Source of the DNA: Sulfurimonas sp. C5
Lineage (GTDB): Bacteria > Campylobacterota > Campylobacteria > Campylobacterales > Sulfurimonadaceae
Assembly (NCBI RefSeq): GCF_029872055.1
Contig: NZ_JARXNQ010000005.1
Coordinates: 71,895 to 135,894, forward strand
Direction: 5' to 3'
Length of the DNA stretch: 64,000 nt
Position 1 is the stretch's first letter, and each line of letters opens with the position of its first letter. The notes beneath the pieces are model-generated. The model ran no database searches. It saw only the letters and a list, made by a program, of their open reading frames with translations, and had not been told where the DNA came from. A program made the translations under genes and the position numbers. Shown piece by piece: positions 4,438 through 36,638 of this stretch.

Positions 4438-5268
4438 TTACTTGATAACTGCTTTTTTCTGTAAAGCGTCCATTTTCTTTTTCATTGCATCTTTGAATTT
4501 TTCCATTTTCAGACGTTGTTCAATGAAAGCTTTTACTTCATCATATTTTCTAATCATAGCTGGTTTTTTATCTTCTACATAGATAACATGGTAACCGAAT
4601 TGTGTTTTAACAGGTTCTAAAGTAACAGTACCTTTTTTCATAGAGAATGCTTTATCGTTAAACTCAGGTACCATTTGCCCTTGAGTAAAATAACCTAAGT
4701 CTCCACCTTTTGGTCCGCTTGGTCCTGTTGATTTTGCTTTTGCTTCTTCAATGAATTTATTTTTTAGTTTATCACCGCTTAAAGGTTTTAAACCTGCAAT
4801 AATACTTTTTGCTTCATCTTCTGTAGCTACAAGGATATGACGAGCATGTACACTTTCCGGCTCGTTAAATTCTTCTTTGTTTTGTTTGTAATAATCTTTT
4901 AACTCTTTTTCTGAAATCTTGATTCCGTCTAAAAGTTGTTTTTGCCAAACTTGAATAGCCAGCTCTTGCTTCATACGCTCTTCGAGCTTTTTATATTCTT
5001 CTTTATACTCTTTTGTTTTTAGAACGCCGTTTTTCTTTGCATCTTCAAAAATAAGTTCTTTACCAATTAGTTGTTGTAGAACTTGTTGTCTAAATGCAGC
5101 TTGCTTTTCAGGTGGAACTTGATTAAATCTTCCCTGTGTTGCTCTCATTAATTCACTATCAACATCTTCTTGTGTAATAGATTTTCCATTTACAGTTACT
5201 AATGTTTGTGCCGAAGCGATAGTCCCAGCGAGCAGAACAACAGAAAGTAATTTTTTTGCTTTAATCAT
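4438..5268 (-). CDS. Periplasmic SurA/PEB4-like peptidyl-prolyl isomerase
   Basis: Exported parvulin-type chaperone of 276 residues. Residues 1-20 form a signal peptide (MIKAKK, a hydrophobic stretch, then SAQ). An N-terminal SurA-like helical region follows (about 25-130), then one PpiC rotamase domain starting at HARHILV and including GGDLGYF and FGYHVIYV. It resembles Campylobacter PEB4 (Cj0596), which helps outer-membrane proteins fold. In C. jejuni that gene sits beside fba and near nth; both are also close by here. An AAGGA site six bases before the ATG supports the start. The downstream PLP gene follows almost without a gap. Confidence 0.9.
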   Translation of the reverse strand: MIKAKKLLSVVLLAGTIASAQTLVTVNGKSITQEDVDSELMRATQGRFNQVPPEKQAAFRQQVLQQLIGKELIFEDAKKNGVLKTKEYKEEYKKLEERMKQELAIQVWQKQLLDGIKISEKELKDYYKQNKEEFNEPESVHARHILVATEDEAKSIIAGLKPLSGDKLKNKFIEEAKAKSTGPSGPKGGDLGYFTQGQMVPEFNDKAFSMKKGTVTLEPVKTQFGYHVIYVEDKKPAMIRKYDEVKAFIEQRLKMEKFKDAMKKKMDALQKKAVIK

Positions 5269-5336
5269 TATATATCCTTATGACATTTTATATATAGAAA
5301 GTGTAATGAGAATTGGATAACGAATATTAAACAAAC

Positions 5337-7316
5337 CTATACATGCACTTTTAAATGTTTTTCTAAAATATACTCTAATTTATCACGTGTTAGCGGTTTT
5401 GCCAGATAATCGTCAAGCCCCTCATGAAGTAACATCTCTTTATCCCCATTCATAGCTAATGCCGTCAGTGCGATGACTGGCGTCTTTTTCACTCCAAAAG
5501 ACATTAATGACTTGATCTCTTTTGTCGCTACAATTCCATTCATTTGAGGCATATCAATATCCATAAACACTATATCAAAACCATTTTCATCTTTATATAG
5601 CTGAACTGCTTCTACACCGTTTGATGCAGTTTTTACTTCAATATTGTATTCTTGTAATAAAATTTTGATAAGTCTTTGGTTAATCATATTGTCTTCAACT
5701 ACCAAAGCTTTAATATGTTCATCTGGTATAGAAAACTCTTTTTTCGGTTCCGACGGTAATTCCACTTTATTCAATAAATATAAATGTCTTGCGATATGAC
5801 TAGGTAAAAGCGGCTTATAAATCACTTCATCAACAAAGTGTGTCAGTTTTGTCTGTAATTTTTCGTTTTCTTCTAAAAGAACCGTAACAGGAGCTTTTTT
5901 TGAATATGTTCCAAGTTCTAAAACCCATGAAGAATCATTTTGATTTGCCACTACATATAATGCATCAATATCTTCATAAACATGTTCATCTAATATATTC
6001 GATTTTATTACATCTAGTGCAAAAGCGCGTAAATATATTGTTAAAAAGTTTGCCTCATCAATTTTTGTCTGATCAAGTAGTAGAACTTTTACCTTTTTCT
6101 TCGGCATCATTTTAAAGTTTTGTCCAACCGAACTTTTAAAATTAAGAACAAAGTTTACATAAGTACCGTTATTGTCACTGCTAACTCGCAAATCTGATCC
6201 TAAAAGTTTAACAAGTCCAGAAGAGAGACTAAGACCTACACCAAGTCTTTCATCTGCTTGATTGCCTGCAGTAAAAGGCTCATTAATAAGTGCTATTTGT
6301 TCTTCTGAAATTCCGCTTCCAGTATCTTTTACACTAAATCCTATACTACAATCTCCGTTTTGCTGACGTTTAAGTAGTTTTATTTCAAATATTACTTTCC
6401 CGCCCCTTGGTGTAAACTTTACAGCATTTGACGTGAGTGCATATAAAATCTGCATAATTTTTTTAGGATCGCTATTGAGTTCTTCTGGTATTTTAGGATC
6501 AATAAAACTGAGTACTTTGATCCCTTTTTCTTTTCCTTGTTTAGTAAAACTATGTGCAAGAGATTCAACTAGTGGTAAAAGATTGAAGACTTCATTTGAA
6601 ACTACTAATCTTCCACTTTGAAGCTGAGCCAGGTCTAAAAGTGTTTCAATATTTGTCATTAAACTTTTTGAAGATCGTTGAATCATATTGATATATTCAT
6701 GCTGTGTAGCATCCAGTTTTGTATCCTCTAACAGTTCTACAAAACCAAGTATTCCATTCATCGGTGTCCTAAATTCATGTCCGATGTTTGCCAAAAATTT
6801 TGTTTTTAGTTTTTCTATCTCTTTTGTTTTTTGTTCTGCCTTATAAATATCCGTTACATCTTTTAGGTGCAGTACGTACAGTCTAGGATTTTTATGTGAC
6901 TGAAATGCCTTTGCATCTATCACAAGAATCTCCGAACTCTTTTTATCAAGTAAACTAACTCTATAACCTTCAAATTTGTATTTTTTTCTTATATAATCCA
7001 ACCACGTTTTATCAGATTCTGTAAAAATTTCTTCACTCTCATTCAAAAACAGATCTCTAATACTCTCATTATCTCTATTAAAGTCAGAAATATCATGATA
7101 GCCCATCTTCTTTAAAAAAGTGCTATTTGCTCCTATCCAGCCTGTACCTTGAAGAAAATACAGTAACATCTCTTCACTGTCATTAGAAAGTTCTACAAAA
7201 AATTCTCTATCTAAATTGTTTTCAAGTTCACCTTGAGCGAAGTCTAAATCACGGACAACTGTTTTTTGCTTATTTGGAGTTGGTTTATCTGATGAAAATA
7301 GAGAAAAAAATCCCAT
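5337..7316 (-). CDS. Hybrid sensor histidine kinase with C-terminal receiver
   Basis: Soluble hybrid kinase of 659 residues with no membrane segment. A PAS-like sensor covers about 50-155. The HisKA phosphorylation site is H180 in IGHEFRTP. The HATPase domain has its N-box near 297 and DTGSGIS near 331. A degenerate receiver-like segment (about 407-515) starts VKVLLLDQ and keeps the conserved Lys-Pro at 501-502 but lacks an obvious phosphoacceptor aspartate. A complete receiver (535-655) has acidic E541/D542, phosphoacceptor D586 in FMDIDMP and K640. There is no HPt domain, so a separate phosphotransfer protein or direct output is needed. AAAGGG precedes the ATG. It is divergent from nth. Confidence 0.93.
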   Translation of the reverse strand: MGFFSLFSSDKPTPNKQKTVVRDLDFAQGELENNLDREFFVELSNDSEEMLLYFLQGTGWIGANSTFLKKMGYHDISDFNRDNESIRDLFLNESEEIFTESDKTWLDYIRKKYKFEGYRVSLLDKKSSEILVIDAKAFQSHKNPRLYVLHLKDVTDIYKAEQKTKEIEKLKTKFLANIGHEFRTPMNGILGFVELLEDTKLDATQHEYINMIQRSSKSLMTNIETLLDLAQLQSGRLVVSNEVFNLLPLVESLAHSFTKQGKEKGIKVLSFIDPKIPEELNSDPKKIMQILYALTSNAVKFTPRGGKVIFEIKLLKRQQNGDCSIGFSVKDTGSGISEEQIALINEPFTAGNQADERLGVGLSLSSGLVKLLGSDLRVSSDNNGTYVNFVLNFKSSVGQNFKMMPKKKVKVLLLDQTKIDEANFLTIYLRAFALDVIKSNILDEHVYEDIDALYVVANQNDSSWVLELGTYSKKAPVTVLLEENEKLQTKLTHFVDEVIYKPLLPSHIARHLYLLNKVELPSEPKKEFSIPDEHIKALVVEDNMINQRLIKILLQEYNIEVKTASNGVEAVQLYKDENGFDIVFMDIDMPQMNGIVATKEIKSLMSFGVKKTPVIALTALAMNGDKEMLLHEGLDDYLAKPLTRDKLEYILEKHLKVHV

Positions 7317-31347: not shown

Positions 31348-32652
31348 ATGAGTAAAAAGCTATTTATTGAAACATTAGGTTGTGCAATGAATACACGTGA
31401 TTCTGAGCATATGATTGCTCAGCTTAAAGAGCGTGAAGGGTATGAGACTACAACTGATGTAAAAGATGCTGACCTAATTTTAATAAATACTTGTTCAGTT
31501 AGAGAAAAACCTGTACAAAAGCTTTTCTCAGAGCTCGGTGCTTTTAACAAAAAGAAAAAAGAGGGGGCAAAAATCGGTGTGTGCGGCTGTACGGCTTCAC
31601 ATCTCGGTGATGAGATTATCAAACGTGCCCCTTATGTAAGTTTTGTTCTCGGTGCCAGAAATGTCTCTAAAATCTCCGAAGTACTTCACAAAGACAAAGC
31701 AGTTGAGACTGATATCAACTACGATGAAAGTGAATTTGCTTTTGATGACTTTAGAACGTCTCCGTATAAAGCATATATAAATATCTCTATCGGTTGTGAC
31801 AAACAATGTACTTTTTGTATTGTTCCAAAAACTCGCGGTGAAGAGATCTCTATTCCCGATGAGCTTATCATAAACGAAGCTAAAAAAGCTGTAGCAAAAG
31901 GTGCTAAAGAGATCTTTTTACTAGGACAAAACGTAAATAACTACGGTAGAAGATTTTCAGACAAAGAACATGAGAAAGTAAACTTCACGGAACTACTGCG
32001 CAGACTCTCAAAAATTGAAGGTTTAGAGCGTATCCGTTTTACATCTCCGCACCCGTTTCATATGGATGATGAGTTTATCGAAGAGTTTGCTTCAAATCCT
32101 AAAATCTGTAAGTCTATGCATATGCCGCTTCAGTCAGGTTCAACAAAAGTACTTAAAGATATGAAACGCGGTTATAGCAAAGAGTGGTTTTTAAACAGAG
32201 TTGAAAAACTACGCAAAGAGTGCCCTGAAGCAAGTATATCAACAGATATTATCGTAGCTTTCCCAGGTGAGACCGAAGAAGACTTCGAAGATACTTTAGA
32301 TGTTATGAAAAAAGTAAAATTTGATCAAATCTTTAGTTTTAAATACTCACCTCGTCCACATACGGAAGCGGAACACTTTACAAATACAGTAGATGATGAG
32401 ATTGGTTCAGCACGTCTGACACAACTGCAATCTTTACAAGCTGAAATCTTGGATGAGAATGCACAGAAACATCTTGGACAGGTATATGAAGTTTACTTTG
32501 AAGAGTTAAGCCGAGACAACCATGTTTCAGGTAGAACAAATGCAAATCTTGTAGTAAAAGTAAAAGGTTCCGAAGAACTTTTGGGTGAATTGAAAAACGT
32601 TAAAATCACACAAATCGGACGTACAATATGTACAGGGGAGATAGTTGAGTAA
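31348..32652 (+). CDS. miaB: tRNA-2-methylthio-N6-(dimethylallyl)adenosine synthase MiaB
   Basis: Radical-SAM methylthiotransferase acting at A37 of tRNAs that read U-starting codons. 434 residues with three parts: N-terminal UPF0004 domain holding the auxiliary cluster cysteines ([31 protein letters not shown]), radical-SAM motif [15 protein letters not shown], and a C-terminal TRAM domain. The SVREK and MNTRDSE variants are MiaB-type; RimO is separately encoded at 37.6 kb. AGAGG precedes the ATG; the next gene overlaps by eight bases. Confidence 0.97.
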
Positions 32653-33265
32653 AAAACTATCTCGCTTCTTAGCACTTATTTTTATTCCTCTTTTAGGCTC
32701 TTTATTAATCCGTATCCTATACTATTCAAATAAAAAAGTTTTTCATGGTGAAACAGAAATACCTGATGAGCCAGTCCTTATTGCATGTTGGCATGGAGAA
32801 CTTTTAATGCTTCCTTACATCTATTTTCATTATAGAGAACAAACTCATGTAAAAGCACTTATCTCACCACATTTTGATGGTCAACTTATTTCAAAAACAT
32901 TAAAATATTTTCAAATCGACACACTTGCGGGCTCAAGTGATAAAAATCCTGCGAAGGCATTAATTCAAGCCATCCGCTTTCTTAAAGAAGGATATGACAT
33001 AGGAATTACACCTGATGGTCCCAAAGGACCACGTCACGAAGTAGCTGACGGAGTAATTGTAATGGCCCAAAAAACAAAAGCAAAAGTTTTGCTTGTCGAG
33101 ATTAAACCCTCAAAATATTGGCAATTTAATTCATGGGATCGCTTTACTGTTCCCAAACCTTTTGGTACAATACATTATTACACATCTATAGTAGATCTGG
33201 ATACACTAGATTTTGAAGCTGCAAGGGCTGTTGTACAAGAGGGCTTACTGAAACATGAACATTAA
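32645..33265 (+). CDS. DUF374 lysophospholipid acyltransferase-like membrane protein
   Basis: 206 residues. The N terminus is a membrane helix ([20 protein letters not shown]), then [14 protein letters not shown] resembling the acyltransferase H-x4 box, [10 protein letters not shown], and [19 protein letters not shown], the DUF374 hallmark. Family members are thought to act on lipids of the inner membrane, but the substrate is unknown. It starts at a TTG within the miaB stop region. H. pylori HP0270 and a Campylobacter gene next to miaB hold the same position, as I recall. Confidence 0.82.
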
Positions 33266-33710
33266 AAGTTTACTTATTTTTATAGCTGTATTTATCATCT
33301 CTTTTATGGCTTTATTTTTTCTCACAAATCCATCATATGAAAAATCATTACAAGCAAAGTATTATTATGAAATAGGTGATTACCACGAAGCCTATAAACT
33401 TGCAAATGAAGCTTTTGTTCTTGATGTTTATAACAGAATGGCTTCAACTATCATGGCACAATCGAAAACATCTATGAAGTATGAAAAATATATCGAGCAA
33501 TCAAAAAGTTATCTAAGGGAAATCAACGATATTATTGCCAACGATACTATAGATGAAGCAAAAAGATCAAAAATAAAACTCATGAGTGAAGTGATGGTTG
33601 ATAGTTATATTAAGTTAGCCCCTAGTGTCGTGACAGATAAAGCTCTTGTTGATGAAGCAGCAAGATATCATGAACAATTTGAGAAAATCCTTGAAAAAGT
33701 TGATCGCTAA
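33255..33710 (+). CDS. Membrane-anchored TPR-like protein of unknown function
   Basis: 151 residues. A single N-terminal membrane helix (about 5-24) is followed by a periplasmic-looking helical region, AKYYYEIGDYHEAYKLANEAF reading like one tetratricopeptide repeat and more helices after it (YIEQSKSYLREINDII, KRSKIKLMSEV). It overlaps the upstream gene by 11 bases and the recombinase gene downstream by about 40. Given that the operon ends with PilM/N/O-like genes, it may belong to the same membrane assembly, but nothing in its sequence proves that. Confidence 0.65.
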   Translation: MNIKSLLIFIAVFIISFMALFFLTNPSYEKSLQAKYYYEIGDYHEAYKLANEAFVLDVYNRMASTIMAQSKTSMKYEKYIEQSKSYLREINDIIANDTIDEAKRSKIKLMSEVMVDSYIKLAPSVVTDKALVDEAARYHEQFEKILEKVDR

Positions 33711-34527
33711 ACAAAAAGAGAAGTTTTTAGAACATCTCACCTCTTATAAAGGGTATTCAAACCTAACTGTTAAAACATACAAAGAGGCTCTGGATGAAGC
33801 GTTAGAGATAATCGAAATAGTCAAAGAAGGCAAACATATTCTTTTTAATCTCATGCCTTATCGTATCCACATTTCAGAACTTAAAAGTAAAACAATCAGT
33901 AAGAAACTTAGTGCAATTAGAAGTTTCAGTGACTATCTGAATGAAAGTGGGATTAAAGTAGTTCTCAAAGCCGATGAAAGTGTCAAGGTTGCCAAAACAT
34001 TACCTAAACCCATTGCACATAAACACATCATTGAAGCTTTACAGCATGCAGATCTTCAGGAAAAGCTTATTATTACTATTCTTTATACAATGGGACTGAG
34101 AATTTCAGAGCTTTCCCATCTTGAACTCAAAGATATTGATTCACAGTGGATTCGTGTAATAGGGAAAGGTTCAAAACAAAGAGATATCCCCGTACTTGAA
34201 ACGACACGCAAACTTTTACAGGAGTATTTAGAAATTTTTTCACCAAAAAAATTTCTTTTTGAGAAAAATGGCGAAAAATTAAGCGAAAATAGTCTAAGAT
34301 ATATCATAAATAAAGTTTTTGCTAGAATATCATTAAAAGTAACACCACATCAATTGCGCCATTCGTATGCAACTTCTTTGTTAAACGGCGGTGCACCTAT
34401 TGTAGATGTGAGTGAACTTTTAGGACATTCATCTATGGCAACAACTCAAATCTATACAAAGTTAGGTAGTGCGTTGAAAAAACAAAACTATGACAAAGCA
34501 CATCCATTATGTGGAGTTAAACAGTAG
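33670..34527 (+). CDS. Xer-type tyrosine recombinase
   Basis: Site-specific recombinase, probably the chromosome-dimer resolvase of this organism. All catalytic residues are visible: Arg in TMGLRISEL, Lys in GKGSKQRDIP, His-x-x-Arg in HQLRHSYAT, His in LLGHSSMATTQIYTKL and the tyrosine nucleophile in IYTKL. The N-terminal core-binding SAM-like domain (about 15-105) is typical. Only one Xer gene is in the window; Campylobacterota often use a single XerH. The start is uncertain: ATG at 33670 is chosen, with an ATG at 33652 and a TTG at 33691 as alternatives. It is followed by GTG of the next gene on its stop (TAGTG). Confidence 0.88.
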   Translation: MNNLRKSLKKLIAKQKEKFLEHLTSYKGYSNLTVKTYKEALDEALEIIEIVKEGKHILFNLMPYRIHISELKSKTISKKLSAIRSFSDYLNESGIKVVLKADESVKVAKTLPKPIAHKHIIEALQHADLQEKLIITILYTMGLRISELSHLELKDIDSQWIRVIGKGSKQRDIPVLETTRKLLQEYLEIFSPKKFLFEKNGEKLSENSLRYIINKVFARISLKVTPHQLRHSYATSLLNGGAPIVDVSELLGHSSMATTQIYTKLGSALKKQNYDKAHPLCGVKQ

Positions 34528-35564
34528 TGCTAAGTAAAATCCTAGAATCTTTATACTTAAAAGTTTTTATCAATATTGTTGTTGAAAGATCTAGTACTAC
34601 CGTCCATATAGAAATTCACTCTAAAACGAATGATATATCCCACTTCGAAAATGTTTTCCCATCTACGAAACTAACAGAAGAGATTTATGAATTTGTTATG
34701 GAATATACAAAAGAATCTCCTTACTACTATGTCTCTTTTTTGGACACTTCAAAAGAACAGGGCGCCCTTCCTAGTTGTGATAAAAACAAGCTTTCTTTTT
34801 ATAAGGATCTTTCTACTGCAGAATACAAATGCATCAATAACGAATGGAGTATTTATACATCTAAAACAGAACTATACGAATTAGAAAGAAAATATGAAGA
34901 TATAGGTATCGATTTTGTCTTCTCCCCTTTTAGTGTTATAGCAAAGTTTTTCAAAGATAAAATAAGTAAACAGTTAGCTATGTTTGCTCTTATAGAAGAC
35001 AGTTCTATCTCTGTTGCTGTTTTTGAAAACTCTCAACTTCTATATGCTGAATATCTTGATATGGAAATTGATATTGAAACAGATAAAATTGTTTTAGAAG
35101 ACCTTGATGAGGACAAAGATTTTGATTTAGATCTGGATGATGAAGGTATCGTATTAGATGATATGGATGTGAATGACGAGCTTGAAGACTTTTCAGACAT
35201 TGAAGATCTAGACAGCCTTGAAGATATCGATGAGTTCTCAGAAGGAAAAGACCTCGAAGAAGAACTTTATGAAAATGAGGCACAGGAAAAAATTACTGCT
35301 CTAGAAGAAAGCCGTGATGAAGAAAATCATTTTACTGAAGATTATCAACGTTTCTCTCTTATCCAGAATGCATTTAACCATTTTTATAAAGACCCAAAAT
35401 ATGAAGGTAAATTTATAGAAAATATTTATATTGCCGACAACATGAAAGTGAGTTCTGATCTAAGACGTTATCTAGAAGAAGAGATGTTTCTAAATGTCTA
35501 TATCAGAACTGTCGATCTAGGTGCTGAAATTTGCGAACTTGCAAAAGAGGAGCTTGGTTTATGA
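34527..35564 (+). CDS. PilM-like (actin-fold) protein with a long acidic insertion
   Basis: 345 residues, no named family recognised directly. The pattern of the second half resembles PilM/GspL actin-fold proteins: a segment like SPFSVIAKFF then QLAMFALIEDSSISVAVFENSQLLYAEYLDM (the phosphate-loop strands), and near the end RFSLIQNAFNHFY then FIENIYIADNMKVSSDLRRYLEEEM. Between them lies an insertion of about 75 residues made mostly of Asp and Glu. The two downstream genes look like PilN and PilO, which strengthens the call. It starts at a GTG on the recombinase stop and overlaps the next gene by four bases (ATGA). Confidence 0.55.
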   Translation: MLSKILESLYLKVFINIVVERSSTTVHIEIHSKTNDISHFENVFPSTKLTEEIYEFVMEYTKESPYYYVSFLDTSKEQGALPSCDKNKLSFYKDLSTAEYKCINNEWSIYTSKTELYELERKYEDIGIDFVFSPFSVIAKFFKDKISKQLAMFALIEDSSISVAVFENSQLLYAEYLDMEIDIETDKIVLEDLDEDKDFDLDLDDEGIVLDDMDVNDELEDFSDIEDLDSLEDIDEFSEGKDLEEELYENEAQEKITALEESRDEENHFTEDYQRFSLIQNAFNHFYKDPKYEGKFIENIYIADNMKVSSDLRRYLEEEMFLNVYIRTVDLGAEICELAKEELGL

Positions 35565-36091
35565 AATACAGCTATATAAAACCAAGAAAGAAAACACCTT
35601 TTACGCAAGAGCTAAAACTTTTGGTGACATTTTTTTCTATAACACTTATAATGCTTTTTAGTACCTATCTATTTCTAGTTTATAAAGACTATACTTTCGA
35701 AAAAGATAAACTCGAAACAGTCCAAGCACGTATTGCTCTTCAAGAAGATATTGAAAATATGAAAAACCAGATTGCTTATATAGAAAAGCAAAAAAACCTT
35801 TCAGAACGAGTTTTTACAAAAAACAGCGTCTTAAAAGATTCGATCACAAACCTTTTTGATCTTGTGCCTGAACGTATTACACTCTCTGAAGCAAAACTCT
35901 TGAAAAATGGTCTAATCTTATATGGAATAACACCAAACAAAGATGTTTATAACTTCATGTTACAAGCACCTCTTAGATCAATATTTCATAAGACATATAG
36001 TAGTTTTTATCCAGCAGGGAATGGTTGGTTAAGATTTGTTTCTACTAACTATATTGATGAAGCAGATGAGGAGCTTTCTAATGAACATTAA
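35561..36091 (+). CDS. PilN-like bitopic membrane protein
   Basis: 176 residues with PilN architecture: a short basic cytoplasmic N terminus (MKYSYIKPRKKT), one membrane helix (about 18-38, LLVTFFSITLIMLFSTYLFLV), a coiled coil (about 42-80), then a small alpha/beta domain with FDLVPERITLSEAKLLKNGLILYGITPNKDVYNFMLQ, matching the typical PilN segment 'P..v.L......g..l.l.G.a'. The ATG at 35561 has AGAGGAG eight bases upstream and overlaps the upstream stop. It would bind the PilM-like protein through its N terminus. Confidence 0.6.
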   Translation: MKYSYIKPRKKTPFTQELKLLVTFFSITLIMLFSTYLFLVYKDYTFEKDKLETVQARIALQEDIENMKNQIAYIEKQKNLSERVFTKNSVLKDSITNLFDLVPERITLSEAKLLKNGLILYGITPNKDVYNFMLQAPLRSIFHKTYSSFYPAGNGWLRFVSTNYIDEADEELSNEH

Positions 36092-36638
36092 TATTCCTCG
36101 CCATTATCTTTATCTTTCACTGGTTTCAGTATTATTATTAATCTTTGTTATCTTCTTTTCATTTAAGATATTAATCCCTAAAGGAAAAGAGTACAGAACT
36201 CAAAGAATAGAATATAAACAAGAGTTCAAAGAGTACCAAAGATATCAAATATTTTACGATGAAACCCTCAGTGTATTAAAAGAGTTACAAAGTAAAAACA
36301 GACATATTATTCAAGCTTTTGACAAACCTTTTAATCCTGAAAGATTTGAAAAACAACACAAAACATATTTTTCATCTTTCCAAATTTCTAAAATAGACAA
36401 AGCTGATAACGAAGAAGGATTTGCCGTTTATGAAGTAAACACGACCTCTAAAATCAATTCACCGGCAAATTTCTACGACTTTTTAGATGCTATTAACAAA
36501 AGTGATTGGATTGTCAGTATAAATTTTCCGATTGAATTCAAAAAAGATGGAGAGATGATCAACTCCTCTTTTACAATGAAGGTTTATTGCAATAATAAAG
36601 ACACTAACTCTAGTGCTTCGGCATCAGCAGCTAAATAA
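36081..36638 (+). CDS. PilO-like bitopic membrane protein
   Basis: 185 residues: N-terminal membrane helix (about 8-30, LYLSLVSVLLLIFVIFFSF), coiled coil (about 38-75) and a ferredoxin-like C-terminal domain with FAVYEVNTTSKINSPANFYDFLDAINKSDWIVSINFPIEF. This is the PilO layout, in which the domain dimerises with PilN in the periplasm. Start at 36081 with GAGGAG seven bases upstream and an 11-base overlap with the PilN-like gene. The last 55 bases overlap the end of convergent tilS and encode a low-complexity NSSASASAAK tail. Confidence 0.58.
   Translation: MNINIPRHYLYLSLVSVLLLIFVIFFSFKILIPKGKEYRTQRIEYKQEFKEYQRYQIFYDETLSVLKELQSKNRHIIQAFDKPFNPERFEKQHKTYFSSFQISKIDKADNEEGFAVYEVNTTSKINSPANFYDFLDAINKSDWIVSINFPIEFKKDGEMINSSFTMKVYCNNKDTNSSASASAAK

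Follow-up and report, generated by a model that had tools for sequence, protein, structure and literature searches.

We analyzed a 64,000-nucleotide stretch of the genome of Sulfurimonas sp. C5 (contig NZ_JARXNQ010000005.1, positions 71,895 to 135,894), referred to here as the window, with a focus on three consecutive forward-strand genes that resemble pilM, pilN, and pilO. We call them fcpM, fcpN, and fcpO, after the Campylobacterota genes for the inner-membrane cage of the flagellar motor. The first, fcpM (34527 to 35564), starts with GTG and encodes a predicted cytoplasmic protein of 345 amino acids; fcpN (35561 to 36091; ATG start, 176 amino acids) and fcpO (36081 to 36638; ATG start, 185 amino acids) encode predicted bitopic proteins. 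The list of open reading frames (ORFs) confirmed the tight coupling described in the original prediction, namely, TAGTG between an upstream recombinase gene and fcpM, ATGA between fcpM and fcpN, and an 11-base overlap between fcpN and fcpO. A single membrane helix had also been proposed for the last two products, and a strongly hydrophobic stretch is indeed present near the N terminus of both FcpN (hydropathy peak, 2.1) and FcpO (peak, 2.9). None of the three proteins of the window had a Pfam or NCBIfam match above the cutoff. Because FcpN is encoded at 70 distinct loci, mostly in Sulfurimonas, and a profile of it matched 172 of 200 genomes of the phylum, we could exclude chance ORFs.

The AlphaFold2 model of FcpM, built from 67 aligned rows, has an actin-like fold (predicted local distance difference test [pLDDT], 83.6; predicted template modeling score [pTM], 0.75), with pLDDT values below 50 at residues 182 to 208 and in short parts of residues 232 to 268. 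These residues lie in an acidic loop (residues 177 to 274; positions 35055 to 35348) in which 46 of 98 residues are Asp or Glu and 5 are Lys or Arg, and which is predicted with low confidence (mean pLDDT of 40 to 57 per block over residues 181 to 270). When the FcpM model was compared with the PDB by Foldseek, the first match was BT_3980 (3hrg; E value, 8e-10) and the second was PilM (5eox_B; 1.9e-7). Alignment with VIA gave a Z score of 16.6 for the PilM-PilN structure 2ych (root mean square deviation [rmsd], 4.4; 252 residues aligned), 12.6 to 15.9 for other PilM chains, 11.9 for the cytoplasmic domain of GspL (1w97), and 15.0 to 18.0 for FtsA chains, the best of which was 7q6g (rmsd, 4.6; 269 residues aligned). 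The predicted fold is that of the actin family, and fold alone cannot tell PilM from FtsA.

The model of FcpN (pLDDT, 81.2; pTM, 0.42) consists of a long helix (residues 16 to 101) followed by a β-β-α-β-β domain, which is the layout predicted for a PilN-like bitopic protein with a cytoplasmic N-terminal peptide, a transmembrane helix, a coil, and a periplasmic domain. VIA aligned it with GspL-type domains at Z scores of 7.0 to 9.3 (PulL 5hl8, 9.3, with an rmsd of 2.1 over 76 residues; XcpY, 8.1; EpsL, 8.0), with PilO at 7.4, and with PilN 4bhq at 7.0 (rmsd, 4.7; 70 residues aligned). Of 28 diverse FcpN rows, 9 matched the PilN family PF05137 with E values up to 0.1, the best being 3.3e-5; FcpN of the window did not match it. 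Near the N terminus of FcpN, within the first 32 residues, a loose pattern (any of YFLRVH, then Ser, then F, Y, or L) that was composed after inspection of the sequences is found in 59 of the 60 rows of alignment A2 and in 27 of the 28 rows of alignment A5; by eye, it remains as a linker in several fused proteins. FcpO appears PilO-like in its position, its length, and the pattern of transmembrane helix and coil in a 66-row alignment, together with synteny. The PilM/PilN/PilO likeness put forward in the original prediction thus held for gene order, membrane layout, and the predicted folds of FcpM and FcpN (AlphaFold2, Foldseek, and VIA); for FcpO, it is a matter of the hydropathy pattern. An actin-like cytoplasmic protein and a bitopic coiled-coil protein with a GspL/PilO/PilN-like periplasmic domain are what the trio has in common with PilM/PilN/PilO of type IVa pili and GspL/GspM of type II secretion systems.

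The alignments behind these profiles were assembled as follows. A1 comprises the window and 66 of the 69 loci at which FcpM was matched, under a length filter of 280 to 420 amino acids; the loci excluded were L069 (frame split into 253 and 79 amino acids), L024 (189 amino acids), and L067 (118 amino acids, near a contig end). A2 contains 59 of 68 loci, those left out being mostly rows with 5'-extended frames, A3 contains 65 of 67 loci, and A4 to A6 were hand-picked to span families. The split fcpM frame of L069 (positions 4975 to 6004 of a Sulfurimonas contig) is either a broken gene or a sequencing error. Another genome of the genus, G129, has two FcpN matches, the second being either another copy or a chance or split match.

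PilMNO-like proteins are known from flagellar motors of this phylum. Excerpts of a 2025 preprint (PMC11870540) describe FcpM, FcpN, and FcpO as PilMNO homologs that, with PflD, make up 34 cage units around the stators of Campylobacter jejuni. According to the same excerpts, fcpMNO is an independent operon with miaB conserved upstream, its deletion leads to loss of the cage and to stators being loaded in about 10% of motors, and in Arcobacter and Nitratiruptor the fcp genes are fused and the chemosensory class is non-F3. Passages of two other papers (PMC11237671 and PMC11392913) ascribe the motor cage of Helicobacter pylori to homologs of PilO, PilN, and PilM; the effects reported for H. pylori, in the extracts available, are on biofilm initiation and surface response rather than nonmotility. 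The cage is left unassigned in the consulted portion of a 2025 Nature Microbiology structure paper, and an excerpt of a 2026 review counts FcpM, FcpN, and FcpO among periplasmic scaffold proteins. The family is already known, since the FcpMNO cage has been published for the Campylobacter motor, and the suggestion that the trio might be a new envelope complex was not sustained. In the literature consulted, the cage is described for C. jejuni and H. pylori and not for Sulfurimonas.

Like C. jejuni, the window has three separate overlapping genes in the order M-N-O behind miaB, apart from pilus genes, with PilM- and PilN-like predicted folds and in a genome with flagellar genes (FlhA, FliP, FliF, and MotB). 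Unlike in C. jejuni, genes for a TPR protein and a Xer recombinase separate the DUF374 gene from fcpM in the window. The gene at 31348 to 32652 is a putative miaB, the tRNA 2-methylthioadenosine synthase gene. A miaB gene lies upstream of the trio in 15 of the 18 long loci of other genomes (L102 to L119) and in all seven trio loci of genus g6, which belongs to the family of the window; one of the three other long loci, L114, starts at a contig end. The H. pylori cage homologs resemble the trio by profile and by place, beside miaB and the DUF374 gene, in a genome of family f2 (L103), which we infer to be the Helicobacter family; the L103 proteins are 16 to 24% identical to those of the window. 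We conclude, with a probability of about 0.92, that the trio represents fcpMNO of Sulfurimonas. Its actin-like FcpM and its bitopic PilN-like FcpN, both as modeled, are what the published cage calls for.

On the basis of its size and of the gene order from Cj0458c (miaB) to Cj0454c, we take Cj0455c of C. jejuni to be FcpN. PilM, PilN, and PilO homologs in the H. pylori motor cage were reportedly also described by Liu et al. in 2024. A passage of a Ribo-seq paper states that a Cj0455c deletion mutant is nonmotile, and a table in one paper places Cj0454c and Cj0456c as neighbors on one strand.

We scanned one even set of 200 genomes of the phylum (G000 to G199, with G000 being the genome of the window); part of the presence lists was completed by elimination over this set, and the Fisher tests treat genomes as independent, ignoring kinship. 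FcpN was found by profile A2 in 172 genomes, FlhA in 184, and T2SSF in 180. FlhA and FcpN occurred together in 172 genomes, FlhA alone in 12, FcpN alone in none, and neither in 16 (P = 1.8e-16). In the 12 genomes with FlhA alone, divergence or fusion kept A2 from matching: the trio of G007 is intact, eight genomes of family f7 have the FcpM match in a frame of 523 to 578 amino acids, long enough for all three parts (the FcpO profile matched the same frame in five of the seven that were read), and three genomes of genus g16 in family f8 have the FcpN match in a frame of 340 to 352 amino acids, the one read (L182) being an FcpM-FcpN fusion followed by FcpO. With four profiles combined, a homolog, separate or fused, was found in each of the 184 FlhA-positive genomes. 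The natural FcpM-FcpN and FcpM-FcpN-FcpO fusions argue that the separate products may bind one another.

The same survey bears on the proposal in the original prediction that the trio is the missing inner-membrane platform of a Cts-type DNA uptake system or, more broadly, the alignment platform of a type II or type IV pilus machine. The folds of FcpM and FcpN would suit such a role, and the genome of the window does encode a pilus machine. That machine, however, lies on another contig (C1, locus L132, G000:C1:104000-121000), where the order is an M99 peptidase, a 511-amino-acid ORF with no Pfam match, PilO, a 173-amino-acid ORF, a secretin, an AAA ATPase, a TPR-like ORF, a 180-amino-acid ORF, T2SSE, and T2SSF. 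Since its PilO matches PF04350 above the cutoff (26.3 bits, with a cutoff of 22), the pilus is not short of a PilO of its own, and the 511-amino-acid ORF, by its position and size, is a putative PilM-PilN fusion. By hhalign, the Fcp profiles had no significant similarity to this ORF or to PilO (E values of 0.08 to 0.12, calculated for a single comparison). As the original prediction had also stated, no pilin, secretin, ATPase, or PilC gene adjoins the trio, whose neighbors are miaB, the DUF374 gene, a gene for a small membrane protein, and the recombinase gene; nor is there an adjacent PilP gene. FcpN showed no positive association with T2SSF over the 200 genomes (153 with both, 27 with T2SSF alone, 19 with FcpN alone, and 1 with neither; P = 0.32). 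All 20 T2SSF-negative genomes belong to genus g18 of family f2, and 19 of them carry FcpN and FlhA; conversely, the seven FlhA-negative genomes of family f4 all have T2SSF, and no FcpM was found in them. The trio differs from the pilus and type II systems in these respects, as well as in its long acidic FcpM loop and in its want of Pfam matches above the cutoff. Among the titles of the literature found for Cj0455c and for Cj0454c and Cj0456c, there was no transformation paper. We regard a pilus or DNA uptake platform as very improbable, and the claim of a missing Cts component was not borne out. The C1 cluster directly adjoins its M99 (cell shape) peptidase gene, and a second contig (C2, locus L133, G000:C2:30000-48000) has a Tad/Flp-like set with a CpaB-like SAF protein, a secretin, ATPases, and two T2SSF-like genes.

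Several points count against the identification of the trio with the motor cage. For FcpM, FtsA equals or outscores PilM (Z scores of 18.0 and 16.6), and the fold does not single out PilM. A Foldseek search of the PDB with FcpN gave no match with an E value below 0.001, the top-listed entries being GspL periplasmic domains (XcpY and PulL). Neither the window-level nor the diverse profiles had a credible match among the sequences of solved structures, where the best matches were coiled coils, ATP synthase b, or unrelated chains, and A1 gave none. PilO was absent among the matches listed, which cover 25 of 38 Pfam families, for 27 FcpO rows. Two of the 18 long loci (L104 and L119) have no miaB or DUF374 gene in about 10.5 kb, and L119 has no FcpO either. 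The identity itself rests on comparison of folds, gene order, and co-occurrence with the published description. Finally, the trio or FcpM is retained in two FlhA-less lineages, and a flagellar role need not be the sole role.

If the trio acts as published for C. jejuni and H. pylori, FcpN and FcpO would pair through their transmembrane helices, coils, and ferredoxin-like domains to form, together with PflD, periplasmic pillars around the stators. FcpM would sit on the cytoplasmic side and bind the conserved peptide at the N terminus of FcpN, much as PilM does with PilN, and the resulting cage would stabilize the stators and thereby support motility. The genes, the FcpM and FcpN folds, the synteny, and the co-occurrence come from the present analysis; the cage, the loss of stators, and the loss of motility come from C. 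jejuni work. By analogy with that work, the trio would have the same function in Sulfurimonas; the docking of FcpN to FcpM and a role for the acidic loop are likewise putative.

Strict absence of these genes wherever flagella are absent, which is the published rule, was not seen. Of the 16 FlhA-negative genomes of the set, 1 keeps the trio, 6 keep FcpM, and 9 (seven of family f4, G086, and G147) have no FcpM that we could find; this bears on the published rule and not on membership of the window trio in the family. The genome with the trio is G190, of genus g6, in which miaB, the DUF374 gene, xer, and fcpM, fcpN, and fcpO are intact and in place, with FcpN probably missed by A2 through divergence. 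FlhA is absent from seven of the eight g6 genomes, and the M, N, and O frames of all seven are open and in their usual place. Five of the seven are at least 99% complete, four of them in one contig; G201 is 86% and G204 76% complete. FliP is absent from G190, the sole g6 genome scanned for it, and FliF is absent from six of the seven, G204 having a short YscJ_FliF match (25.5 bits, with a cutoff of 24.4) that leaves its flagellar state open. In genus g20 of family f3, all six genomes lack FlhA and FliP and carry an open FcpM-like frame of 252 to 259 amino acids, with profile E values at the locus of 3.3e-18 to 3.1e-8 (2.5e-18 in G174 and 3.1e-8 in G026). There, miaB and the DUF374 gene lie upstream of fcpM in five of six genomes, once 3.9 kb away, and no FcpN or FcpO was found beside FcpM at any of the six loci. 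The loss of flagella does not always remove the FcpMNO family, which is new.

A few weak or incomplete matches accompany these counts. Weak A5 matches in FlhA-negative genomes (best, 7.8e-5, in the transmembrane and coil region) were judged to be chance, those in g20 lying away from the FcpM locus. MotB_plug matches below the cutoff or borderline were found in 10 of the 13 g6, g20, and f4 genomes scanned, the one in G026 (24.8 bits, with neighbors) exceeding the cutoff of 24; all were presumed to be other proteins. G147, of genus g18, has FliP and MotB, and FlhA, T2SSF, and FcpM were not found in it, which may reflect assembly gaps or a motor being lost. Its one FcpN candidate, a transmembrane coiled-coil ORF, lies in a 10-kb stretch in which neither miaB nor DUF374 was matched, and G147 was kept in the FlhA-negative count. 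The pilus cluster of G190 has a 525-amino-acid ORF beside ORFs of 210, 149, and 413 amino acids, a layout that by ORF sizes is as in the genome of the window.

The copies in flagella-less lineages might be relics on their way to being lost. In g20, FcpM was found with no adjacent FcpN or FcpO and is itself matched modestly (E values of 2.5e-18 to 2.3e-9 in four or five loci and 3.1e-8 in G026), and the g6 proteins have diverged from those of the window (15 to 27% identity). However, the frames are open in all seven g6 loci and, for FcpM, in all six g20 genomes, and selection on the g6 genes is purifying. The ratio of nonsynonymous to synonymous substitution rates (dN/dS; Nei-Gojobori, 10 pairs from five of the seven g6 genomes, the two most diverged being excluded) was 0.063 to 0.128 for FcpM, 0.113 to 0.257 for FcpN, and 0.136 to 0.205 for FcpO, all well below 1 while dS reached 0.7 to 0.9; the same pairs gave 0.081 to 0.120 for Xer and 0.007 to 0.047 for MiaB. 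We consider decay of these genes unlikely. A better-placed explanation, to which we give even odds, is that the trio has a flagellum-independent role in the envelope, besides the cage or preceding its recruitment to the motor, and that flagella-less lineages keep only that role. The intact g6 trio with its low dN/dS, FcpM alone in all six g20 genomes, and the absence of the long acidic loop from both genera favor this explanation. It has to contend with the nine FlhA-negative genomes in which no FcpM was found, with the borderline FliF match of G204, and with the sole g6 genome that has FlhA (G202, outside the set of 200), which also has a full FliF match and in which no trio was found, possibly owing to a gap (89% complete; 220 contigs). 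No partner or phenotype is known for such a role, and a search of the open-license literature for FcpM and FcpMNO found no report of a role free of the flagellum.

The acidic loop of FcpM differs in length between these lineages and flagellated relatives with unfused genes. Between the two fold anchors that bound it, the loop has 56 to 106 residues, of which 15 to 46 are Asp or Glu, in all 24 unfused FcpM rows from FlhA-positive genomes. At the same place, the seven g6 rows have 11 residues and the six g20 rows have 13 to 26. A short loop also goes with some flagella, since the nine fused rows (families f7 and f8), which all come from FlhA-positive genomes and presumably belong to the Arcobacter/Nitratiruptor-type fused groups, have 8 to 32 residues. 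This pattern would fit a loop confined to caged motors with unfused genes; the correlation covers a small number of independent lineages, and loss rather than gain of the loop is assumed. Within Sulfurimonas, the length filter of A1 is biased against short-loop copies, and the range of 58 to 102 residues there describes the rows kept. The chances seem to us balanced that the PilMNO-like module has a second function, independent of the flagellum, for which it is kept whole in g6 and as FcpM alone in g20, and that the short stump marks the loop as the part adapting FcpM to the caged motor.

The remaining genes of the operon, which includes a tRNA modification gene, an acyltransferase-like gene, and a recombinase gene as the original prediction had noted, are on the forward strand. 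Downstream of miaB are a gene for a DUF374 lysophospholipid acyltransferase-like protein (32654 to 33265; PF04028, E value of 2e-25), a gene for a small protein with one transmembrane helix (hydropathy peak, 2.9) and a TPR-like region (33255 to 33710; PF12895, E value of 0.0043, below the cutoff), and a gene for a Xer-type tyrosine recombinase (33646 to 34527, true start uncertain; PF00589, E value of 1.4e-31; XerC model, 8e-59, below its curated cutoff). This recombinase is presumably XerH. Beyond the trio are tilS- and rimO-like ORFs, named through Pfam matches of syntenic genes in another genome; the tilS-like ORF and fcpO are convergent and overlap by 55 bases (36584 to 36638). The small TPR-like gene has relatives in the corresponding operon of families f1, f5, f6, f9, f11, and f12 and in parts of f2, f3, and f10, and none was found in the FlhA-less g6 loci; its product is a candidate for a further motor part. 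The operon includes xer in f1, f5, f6, f9, and f12 loci; at the f2, f3, f7, f8, f10, and f11 loci read, no xer was found in it. Because the gene is in the operon of some families only, it seems to have left or entered it.

The identification keeps the trio from being wrongly claimed as an absent competence platform. It also links to a known motor structure an operon in which none of the three core genes has a Pfam or NCBIfam match above the cutoff. With the copies in flagella-less relatives, one can test whether the flagellum took over a pilus-derived module that retained an earlier or different function, and the same copies may reveal which portion of FcpM serves the motor.

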